The notes beneath the pieces were generated by a model. It searched no databases. It saw nothing but the letters and a program-made list of their open reading frames with translations, and was not told where the DNA came from. DNA of 39,415 bases from positions 1-39,415 of IMG/VR virus record IMGVR_UViG_3300021090_000063; one strand, 5' to 3'. Shown here piece after piece: positions 23,161-39,415 of the stretch. How positions within the stretch are numbered: position 1 is the stretch's first letter; every line of letters starts with the position of its first letter. The translations under genes were made by a program, and so were the position numbers. Source of the stretch: a virus.

Positions 23161-23665
23161 GTTTTGCGTCTTCGACAAGTGCGCGATGCAGGTCCAGCAA
23201 CGCCGCATCCGACATTTTGGTGATGATCCGTCGCTGGTCTTCCGTCAGCGAGGTTTGGCGTTCAATGTTGTCCGCCCAGAGGCGAATAGAGGACTTCAGC
23301 GACTTGAATGCCTCGCCCAGCGCGAGCTGCACTTCTTCGGTGGACCAGAGGGTCCCTTGCGTCAATTCGTACTGCTGGCGCTGCCTCTGCGCGGCCCAGA
23401 ACTCTTTCTGCAGGTAGGGCGGTAGGTCGTTGGGTCGGAGCTTCTTGATCCACGCCTCGATGTCCACGACCGGGTCGACGAGGTACTTGGCCGCCTCGCC
23501 GATCGGGAACACCGGGTAACCTGCGCGCATGCCGCTGGGTTCGACTTCGCGAATCAGTTCAGCTACTCGGCGTTTGTCCTTACAAAATAGCAAGGCCAAC
23601 TCTGAGATGCTGGCGCCGTCATAGATCGTCGATTTTTCTTCTTCGCTACGCTCATGGCCGGCCAT
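23114..23665 (-). CDS. terminase small subunit, DUF1441/Nu1-like
   Basis: The 183-aa product carries an N-terminal winged-HTH-like part (ASISELALLFCKDKRRVAEL, IREVEPSGMRAGYPVFPIGE) and AAKYLVDP, followed by PYLQKEFWAAQRQRQQYELT and a helical C-terminus. This is the DUF1441 pattern, which is the small terminase of lambda-like packaging modules; it binds cos and recruits gpA. GAGAGG precedes ATG 23665. It overlaps the upstream 72-aa gene by 14 nt and the large subunit by 47 nt. Confidence 0.85.
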   Translation of the reverse strand: MAGHERSEEEKSTIYDGASISELALLFCKDKRRVAELIREVEPSGMRAGYPVFPIGEAAKYLVDPVVDIEAWIKKLRPNDLPPYLQKEFWAAQRQRQQYELTQGTLWSTEEVQLALGEAFKSLKSSIRLWADNIERQTSLTEDQRRIITKMSDAALLDLHRALVEDAKHAPSRQIEAEVPDGL

Positions 23666-23870
23666 TGGTCAGCCTCTCACGGACGATCTCGTGCAGGGTC
23701 TCGAAGGGCAAGCGTCGCAGCGTCTCGATGTGCAGCGACAGGTAATCCGGGAGCGCTTTGTCCTGGTGTCGGTAGCCCGCGTACGAGCTGTACGACATAC
23801 CCAAGATTCGACAGACCTCGGTTGGCGTTCGTATCAGGTGTAACTCAAAATCAACGAGCATCTGGTTCAT
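23652..23870 (-). CDS. small helix-turn-helix-like protein, 72 aa
   Basis: MNQMLVDFELHLIRTPTEVC and onward, with RILGMSYSSYAGYRHQDKAL resembling a helix-turn-helix recognition region. It is the first gene of the late operon, next to the attP region, with GAGG five bases before the ATG. It could be a late regulator or a packaging accessory protein. I know small proteins like it in other phages but no proven function. Confidence 0.7.
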   Translation of the reverse strand: MNQMLVDFELHLIRTPTEVCRILGMSYSSYAGYRHQDKALPDYLSLHIETLRRLPFETLHEIVRERLTNGRP

Positions 23871-23969
23871 ACGAACCTCGTAGTGAATTCCTGGGTAGTG
23901 TAGCTATCTGTTACCCTGCGTCGCCACCGAAAAGAAGTGGCTTTAGGTGGGCGAAAATGGCTGATTATG

Positions 23970-23989
23970 TGTTACCAATTTTGTTACCA
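23970..23989. repeat. paired direct repeat TGTTACCA, left arm
   Basis: TGTTACCA at 23970-23977 and 23982-23989, separated by 4 bp, so 12 bp apart start to start. A lone TGTTACC lies at 23909-23915 and inverted GTAACA at 24027-24032. Likely integrase arm-type sites. Confidence 0.65.
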
Positions 23990-24160
23990 GAAAAATTGAT
24001 GAAAAATAAACCAATAGAATCAACGAGTAACAAGTTCGTTTTTCCGATTAGAGTTTACTGGGAGGACACGGATTCAGTGAAATCAAGCACATAAAGTCGT
24101 ATTTCCTCGAACAAATAGCGAGCAAAAGTAACAGAAAATCACTATTATCAACTTTAAGTC

Positions 24161-24180
24161 TGTTACCAAACGTGTTACCA
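24161..24180. repeat. paired direct repeat TGTTACCA, right arm
   Basis: TGTTACCA at 24161-24168 and 24173-24180 with exactly the same 12-bp register as the left pair, ending 7 bp before the integrase ATG. Inverted GTAACA lies at 24128-24133. Likely arm-type sites; binding here could also autoregulate int. Confidence 0.65.
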
Positions 24181-24187
24181 GGAATTC

Positions 24188-25201
24188 ATGGGCACCATCG
24201 TTCCACGCGGCAAGAAGCACCGAGCCGTTGTCCGCTACAGGGGCGTGACCAAGACCAAGACCTTCACGCAAGTAGGCGCAGCGAAGCGATGGGTACGCGA
24301 GGTCGAGCACACTCTTGACGGCCAAGTGTCCCAAGGAAGGCACGACCTGCTGCCGACGCTGCTCAAAAAGTATCGAGAAGAAATCGTAGAGAAGCGCCCC
24401 TATACAACCAAAACGCCTTCGCATCTGAAGTACCTGGAGCGGATAACAGCGAACACCACGGTAGGGGATTGCACACCGGAGTGGTGGGTGTCCTTCGTGA
24501 CGGGCCTTACGTGCGCGCCGGCTTCCCGCGGACGTTACCTGTCCCTGGTGACCAGTACCCTACGAACGGCAGAGGGTCTGTGGGGCGTGAACGTGGACTG
24601 GCCGAGCTTCAAGCGCGGCAAGGCGATGATGCGCGCGCTCCACCTGCTTCCGTCAAAGAGACACCGTGGGCGTCGAGCAACCGAGACTGAAATTGCACTC
24701 GTAAAAGACAACGCGGCCTCTGGTTTGCCGCTCGCAGACCTCATCGACTTCGCGGTCGACTCTGCGCTGCGTGACGCTGAGATCTGTCGGATCAAATGGG
24801 TCGACTACACGAAAGATATCGGTATGGTGTGGGTGCGCGATCGAAAACACCCAAAACAAAAGATGGGTAATGACTGGCACGTCCCGTTGCTCGGACGCTG
24901 CGTAGAAATCATCGAACGGCAGCCGCGAATATCAGAGTTCATCTTCCCGTACAAGCCGGAGAGCGTGTCGTCTGCTTTTCGTCGCTCAAGAAAACGCGCC
25001 GGTATAGTTAATCTCACGTGGCACGACTTACGGCATGAAGGTATCTCGCGGCTGTTTGAGCGCGGCTTCTCCATTCAAGAAGTTGCCCTGGTGTCCGGAC
25101 ACACCGATTGGTCAAGCCTCAAGATATACACCCAACTGCGCCCGGAGTCGTTGCACGCTGGGCCTGTGTTATCACAACAAACGAAGGAGATCGTCAAATG
25201 A
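24188..25201 (+). CDS. int: tyrosine-family site-specific integrase
   Basis: The 337-aa product has all tyrosine recombinase catalytic residues: R195 (DSALRDAEIC), a lysine near 224 in the beta-hairpin (RKHPKQKMG), H279 and R282 (WHDLRH), H305 (SGHTDW) and the nucleophile Y314 (LKIYTQ). Residues 1-50 form a short arm-binding-like domain with basic residues (GTIVPRGKKHRAVVRYRG, then TKTFTQVGAAKRW), followed by a SAM-like core-binding domain (about 55-150). AGGA precedes the ATG by four bases. It integrates and excises the phage chromosome at the adjacent attP. The gene overlaps the lipoprotein start (ATGA), so both are made from one mRNA. Confidence 0.96.
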   Translation: MGTIVPRGKKHRAVVRYRGVTKTKTFTQVGAAKRWVREVEHTLDGQVSQGRHDLLPTLLKKYREEIVEKRPYTTKTPSHLKYLERITANTTVGDCTPEWWVSFVTGLTCAPASRGRYLSLVTSTLRTAEGLWGVNVDWPSFKRGKAMMRALHLLPSKRHRGRRATETEIALVKDNAASGLPLADLIDFAVDSALRDAEICRIKWVDYTKDIGMVWVRDRKHPKQKMGNDWHVPLLGRCVEIIERQPRISEFIFPYKPESVSSAFRRSRKRAGIVNLTWHDLRHEGISRLFERGFSIQEVALVSGHTDWSSLKIYTQLRPESLHAGPVLSQQTKEIVK

Positions 25202-39046: not shown

Positions 39047-39359
39047 CAAAGTTTGCTTTCCGCGCTTGCGCCAGAGAGTTTGTTAACGCCCGTAACTCCT
39101 TGATTCTTCGCTTCTTTACTACTTTAAGTAACTAAGTTAACAAAGTTAACAATTAAATAGATAGAAGATTAGAGATAGGTAGTGGACTACTACTAGGGGG
39201 ACTAGGTAGAGGAAGTATAGAAAGAGGGTAGACGGTCAATACGCCTATAGAGTTTGGGAAATCAGTGCAACTTTGTTAACTTGTGTTTTCTCCACAAGAA
39301 TCAGTGGCTTAGCGGTTAACATTGTCAAAAAAGTTTGTTAACACGTCGAGTTTGTTAAC
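39042..39359. repeat. cluster of eight GTTAAC repeats, possible replication origin or control region
   Basis: GTTAAC occurs at 39042, 39082, 39136, 39145, 39275, 39315, 39337 and 39354. Three copies extend to AGTTTGTTAAC (39077, 39332, 39349), and others appear in the opposite orientation as GTTAACAAAG. The region is AT-rich and has a purine-rich plus strand between about 39155 and 39235. There is no supported gene in 39047-39415. Its place after the primase-helicase and HNH genes suits an origin with iterons or a regulator-binding array. Confidence 0.75.
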
Positions 39360-39415
39360 AGCAGTGCCCGCGCTACGAGGTTTTAGAAGAGTCCCAAGCC
39401 TCGGCTCCGCGCCCC

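Follow-up and report, generated by a model that had tools for sequence, protein, structure and literature searches.

The interval directly upstream of the integrase gene int in the window, i.e. the whole 39,415-base virus record analysed here, is very probably (roughly 85%) the attP of a tyrosine integrase specific for the host gene ybgC, with paired arm-like sites. This reading builds on the established anatomy of the site, its recurrence in other phages, the family of the integrase and the match between the core of one phage (L004) and a native ybgC. An earlier note on this DNA had proposed that the phage recombines within the 5' part of ybgC. Support for this comes from the same codons, reading in the same direction, upstream of the integrase genes of independent phages, and also from the conserved distances of the repeat pairs, the fully identical core of L004 and the relationship to a family of integrases that replace the 5' end of dusA.

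Layout of the probable attachment site

Judging from its terminase and portal, the phage appears to resemble Casjensviridae-type phages. The terminase is approximately 50% identical to those of Pseudomonas phage vB_Pae-SS2019XI and Burkholderia phage BcepNazgul, and the portal 53-55% identical to those of Achromobacter, Stenotrophomonas and other phages. No exact terminal repeats, direct or inverted, were found in the window at the lengths tested. The DNA before int is A+T-rich, with a G+C content of 34% in 23960-24188 versus 59% for the whole window. The features of the region are listed in Table 1.

Table 1 Features of the putative attP region and the adjoining integrase gene in the window
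Feature	Position	Strand	Remark
Single imperfect repeat TGTTACCC	23909..23916	+	One mismatch
Possible ribosome-binding site AGGTGG	23945..23950	+	For ATG 23957
Longer reading of the 31-codon ORF, 45 aa	23957..24094	+	Start at ATG 23957; ybgC 5' end proposed to come from the phage
P-side arm pair, TGTTACCA twice, 12-bp period	23970..23989	+	80 nt before core start
31-codon ORF MKNKPIESTSNKFVFPIRVYWEDTDSVKSST and stop	23999..24094	+	
Partial repeat, TGTTAC	24027..24032	-	
Core, ybgC codons RVYWEDTD (AGAGTTTACTGGGAGGACACGGAT)	24050..24073	+	Probable crossover region
TCAAGCACATAA, right of core	24083..24094	+	Conserved in L003 and L009 as TCAARCACWTAR
Partial repeat, TGTTAC	24128..24133	-	
P'-side arm pair, TGTTACCA twice, 12-bp period	24161..24180	+	111 nt after core start, just 5' of int
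int, tyrosine recombinase, 337 aa	24188..25201	+	Of the dusA-associated integrase family

The two pairs of TGTTACCA in the same 12-bp register, as described earlier, were recovered exactly and all on the plus strand, with starts at 23970, 23982, 24161 and 24173. The window holds six copies of this 8-mer where 0.54 are expected, a number reached in none of 100 shuffles, and four of the six lie within the 211 bases before int. Among 20,000 dinucleotide shuffles there was no case of one 8-mer forming a pair with a period of 10-14 to either side of the core. Repeated arm-like sites thus flank the core on both sides, as in an attP with arm sites. The single copies claimed in addition fared less well: the one at 23909 has a mismatch, and those at 24027 and 24128 share only GTAACA. 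Two TGTTAACA-like repeats are also seen close together at 39336-39361, near the right end of the record. By eye, a small gene lies on the minus strand at about 23666-23870, between the terminase genes and attP and antisense to the attP ORF, and is a candidate att-adjacent regulator; a similar small frame is seemingly present upstream of the core in phage L003.

Recurrence in other phages

In 2.9 million viral contigs, the strict pattern RVY[YW]EDTD was found in three places (L002, L003 and L004), each time reading in the same direction as a tyrosine integrase gene, with the core ending 134-159 nt before its start. The looser pattern VY[YW]EDTD gave 76 stretches (5 + 71), i.e. these three and 73 others which served as controls. 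No tyrosine integrase was detected at any of the 73 in the fetched DNA, using two HMMs built from ten integrases, and most of these control loci are embedded in long ORFs that are unrelated. Of two viral scans, the second, done with a three-row profile, yielded almost the same set of loci as the first. Phage L009, whose integrase is 56% identical to that of the window, has the same layout around a drifted core, and the string TCAARCACWTAR after the core is common to the window, L003 and L009. Across the phages, the distance from core end to int start is 108-159 nt.

In addition to the encoded residues, the DNA of the cores was compared over 24 nt with 86 native ybgC sites. The core of L004 is identical in 24 of 24 positions to the native ybgC at L112 (Azospirillum sp. 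TSO22-1), and the cores of L002 and L003 match their nearest native ybgC in 23 of 24. Of the nucleotide identity with ybgC called for in the earlier note, the core of the window, whose host was not identified, reaches at best 20/24 among the 86 native sites, and no match beyond this was found there for its own attB. Native ybgC genes that read EDTD-S with GGATTC (L371, L375-L377) nearly match what the window and L002 have as core plus TC.

Two integrase lineages

The window integrase carries the tyrosine recombinase catalytic domain PF00589 (E 2.8e-20). Its relatives found by tblastn include Burkholderia phage AH2 and Pseudomonas phage H66, with 30-42% identity among the matches listed, and it belongs to the dusA-associated family. 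Both phages are named in the accessible text of the paper defining the dusA-associated integrases (Farrugia et al., 2015; PMC4482086). According to the same text, the elements replace the 5' end of dusA and keep a putative promoter, excision data are given for dusA islands, and targets other than dusA are listed, ybgC not being among them in the portion available (PMC4482086).

A dusA-type frame with the APM motif was found upstream of int, on the opposite strand, in 27 of the 59 viral relatives with enough upstream DNA. In one bacterial order (398 genomes), dusA adjoins 20 of the 21 strong homologues; the remaining one lies near a contig start, with little upstream DNA and neither a dusA nor a ybgC motif. 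In a second order (399 genomes), 6 of the 12 homologues are at dusA and the other six at neither dusA nor ybgC; by eye, several of these six adjoin tRNA genes. APMMDWTD in the phage attP pieces is here taken to be dusA. The available part of PMC4482086 backs this assumption. Related prophages at a different gene, which the earlier note regarded as evidence against ybgC, do literally exist in these dusA relatives, but they do not count against it because they carry a dusA core.

Codons of ybgC precede int in the window, L009 and L003, and the DNA upstream of int in L009 showed no dusA motif. In a tree of 103 integrases (45 dusA, 30 other, 25 without flank and 3 ybgC), the three ybgC integrases fall into one supported group of six (95/97), alongside three without an assigned target. 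The ybgC label requires two changes on this tree and does not form one clade, rows without an assigned target (L005, L012 and L014 among those in the tree) being intermixed, so a single origin of the ybgC specificity is not established. The integrase of L005, i.e. Pseudomonas phage vB_Pae-SS2019XI, groups with the ybgC integrases, and similar repeat pairs (TGTTACAC...GTTACA) are seen around its att core, upstream of position 524.

The integrases of L002 and L004, which are 52% identical to each other, are, by their relatives, of a radC type, different from the window lineage. That of L002 has an Arm-DNA-bind_3 domain. The nearest named relatives of the two, at about 40% identity, are found in Erwinia phages PEp14 and Pavtok and Klebsiella phage SopranoGao (L406-L408), where the DNA upstream of int encodes radC-like HNHP pieces. 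HNHP in such attP pieces is presumably radC, which is backed by a Pfam RadC match in one genome. A radC-type integrase profile gave a single match in 398 genomes, inside a truncated radC (L405:3034-3681, minus strand). Since two integrase lineages are found with ybgC codons, this gene was apparently reached from two parent specificities.

A proposed phage-supplied 5' end of ybgC

The 31-codon frame reads as first described, with a YbgC N-terminus followed by SVKSST and a stop. In an NCBIfam scan, KFVFPIRVYWEDTD of this frame matched YbgC models only, at their N-termini: PRK10800 with E 0.015 (profile positions 4-19) and TIGR02799 with E 0.047 (positions 1-14). The peptides of L002, L003 and L004, which were scanned along with it (that of L009 was outside the scan), likewise matched YbgC models only and in the N-terminal register. 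With E-values of 0.004-0.094 these matches are individually weak; the likeness is more than chance because the codons recur upstream of other integrases. The TIGR02799 match covers positions 1-14 of 126 and scores 14 bits versus a cut-off of 141, i.e. a full-length hotdog domain is absent. The ybgC piece of the window is a gene fragment and not a gene, and a real ybgC gene in the phage was rejected on this coverage. ATG 23957 may be a better start than ATG 23999, as AGGTGG precedes the former and no such signal the latter; the 45-aa reading from ATG 23957 includes the left repeat pair.

In all five phages (the window, L002, L003, L004 and L009) an in-frame start lies 6-31 codons before the core in an open frame, and in three of them it is an ATG. 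The earlier note had claimed a replacement 5' end that restores the gene; the in-frame start before the core is indeed there, whereas restoration after integration is something we infer. With five in-frame starts out of five, but no sigma-70-like promoter found in 23600-24300, it is by the precedent of the dusA family that restoration of ybgC by the phage-supplied 5' end is considered fairly likely. Alternatively, attP might recombine at ybgC and leave the gene unrestored, the core being shared for recombination identity and the in-frame start being chance; lysogens would then lose ybgC, and the downstream tol-pal would be expressed from another promoter. The promoter result agrees with such a loss, as do the weak start signals (L003, L004 and L009 have a weak ribosome-binding site or none) and the chance of 0.28-0.65 per phage for an open frame with a start in shuffled DNA. 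However, the joint shuffle chance of five in-frame starts out of five is about 0.02 for any start and about 0.05 for at least three ATG, all five phages have a hydrophobic residue immediately before RVY, and the dusA relatives replace the 5' end of their target in sequenced chromosomes, as described in the accessible text of PMC4482086. An unrestored ybgC is thus regarded as rather unlikely, and restoration is preferred.

The positions of the repeat pairs bear on a different explanation. Relative to the core start, the P pair starts at -80 in the window, -79 in L009 and L003, about -81 in L002 and -81 in L004, and the P' pair at +111 in the window, L009 and L003 and about +146 in L002 and L004. 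If the repeats were operators of int and the ybgC piece a relic of an older site, with the phage now integrating elsewhere, a P' pair just 5' of the int start and a drifted core as in L009 would be natural, but not an int-distal pair whose distance from the core hardly varies among the five phages, all of which have it. Moreover, even L009, which carries LRVYWDDPHSVISNT, retains the codons of the left half, the right half having drifted, and the operator explanation is considered very unlikely. Under the attP reading, such drift would be expected if, of the core codons, just those to the left of the crossover became part of the restored gene. A reading of the frame as a small peptide gene of the phage, unconnected with integration and YbgC-like by chance, was rejected as highly improbable, since the weak individual E-values and a conserved C-terminal tail right of the core which ybgC does not explain (SVKSST, SVISNT, LMFSST) stand against two integrase lineages sharing these codons and their distance from the repeat pairs, the core of L004 being native ybgC to the nucleotide and the control loci being devoid of a detected integrase.

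Integrated elements at ybgC

A search for prophages of the window type integrated in ybgC, as suggested earlier, gave none: no lysogen of the window integrase group at ybgC was found among 33 close homologues in two bacterial orders, and none of the 3 homologues in a class sample of 369 genomes had a ybgC motif in the fetched loci. Two small orders (41 and 2 genomes) yielded nothing new. In a pattern scan of genome contigs, 80 of the 111 matching stretches were read, comprising 75 native ybgC genes, a divergent paralogue (L090), two unrelated frames (L091 and L109) and two interrupted ybgC genes (L111 and L144). Based on these two clear interruptions among the 80 of 111 matches and 0 of the 33 homologues, ybgC is a rare insertion site. 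In E. coli, 5375 of 5426 genomes had a single place covering at least 80% of ybgC, with no interruption in any of the 5375; the 51 genomes without a match were left out.

In Bradyrhizobium valentinum, ybgC stops soon after RVYYEDTDF, with its 3' part at a distance of about 61 kb. The DNA near the junction encodes a large serine recombinase; a complete ybgC-like gene stands beside the distant 3' part, and because of this complete gene at its far end the element seems to replace the whole of ybgC. The ybgC-like gene (4HBT domains) and the recombinase of the element were observed at L289:893-1369 and L288:307-2028, both on the minus strand. In the accessible parts of PMC9174649 and PMC9239051, attBY, the site of the Bradyrhizobium symbiosis ICE, is located in ybgC, and the interruption in B. 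valentinum agrees with the site as reported there (PMC9174649).

In a Rhodobacteraceae MAG (L111, 2113-2240), LLSG and a stop come after MTHRHPVRVYYEDTD, and then a CTACCA repeat pair at +99/+110. Here, ybgC is cut after RVYYEDTD and the host stub is present; two genomes of the same genus have an intact ybgC. No integrase was detected on this 6.2-kb contig and no second ybgC piece was found in its genome.

Proposed mechanism and comparison with known systems

We infer from these comparisons the points of strand exchange, the integration of the window phage and the transcription and translation of a hybrid gene, as follows. The integrase of a temperate Casjensviridae-like phage would recombine inside the first ybgC codons of its host, with the TGTTACCA pairs held by its N-terminal region as arm sites and the cut made within GTTTACTGGGAGGACACGGAT by its catalytic part. 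After integration, the int side would have the host promoter, start and first ybgC codons, in a frame ending at the phage SVKSST stop, and at the other end the phage start and about 17-31 codons would continue in frame into the remainder of ybgC.

As the thioesterase gene ybgC is directly upstream of tolQ in E. coli, insertion there should have an effect on an envelope operon, which is not so for dusA or a tRNA gene as target. It is tentatively suggested, as a possibility, that the RVY[YW]EDTD codons are a convergent hotspot for tyrosine integrases of the dusA and radC lineages and for a serine-recombinase ICE. With ybgC cut just before tol-pal, each element would then have to bring a front end (a short piece or the whole gene) and a promoter, and the host envelope operon would be partly prophage-controlled. 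The mechanism as such is already known, and ybgC is a new target for this known replacement of a 5' end; the target, the reading direction and the convergence are new as far as the literature searched shows. No phage at ybgC was found in that literature, most subscription journals being outside its coverage, and a phage-side case is added to a site otherwise reported, in the accessible text of the papers found, only from the Bradyrhizobium ICE. This would be a second gene-front-replacing specificity within one integrase family and, if true, a comparison of dusA and ybgC integrases would map the specificity determinants, with a core and arm-like sites at fixed distances.

In lambda attP, the core lies between two sets of arm-type sites, as it does in the window, and to this extent the lambda likeness noticed earlier holds. 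However, the window pairs repeat directly in a single orientation and their distances differ (-80 and +111), and a lambda-like symmetrical array was rejected on these grounds. In phages with radC-type integrases, the codons of a conserved gene precede int as in the window, but PEp14, Pavtok and SopranoGao carry a radC-like HNHP piece, and the window integrase is of another lineage. The Bradyrhizobium ICE also has ybgC as its insertion site, according to the accessible text on attBY (PMC9174649, PMC9239051); in the B. valentinum genome, the insertion was seen directly behind the RVYYEDTDF codons. It is not homologous, using a large serine recombinase and bringing a whole ybgC-like gene instead of a short 5' piece. 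The dusA-associated integrases are homologous to that of the window, and their elements likewise give a conserved protein gene a new 5' end, as far as described in the available part of PMC4482086. The window differs from them in its target, which is ybgC and not dusA, and in that the ybgC piece reads with int, whereas the dusA piece of the relatives reads against it.
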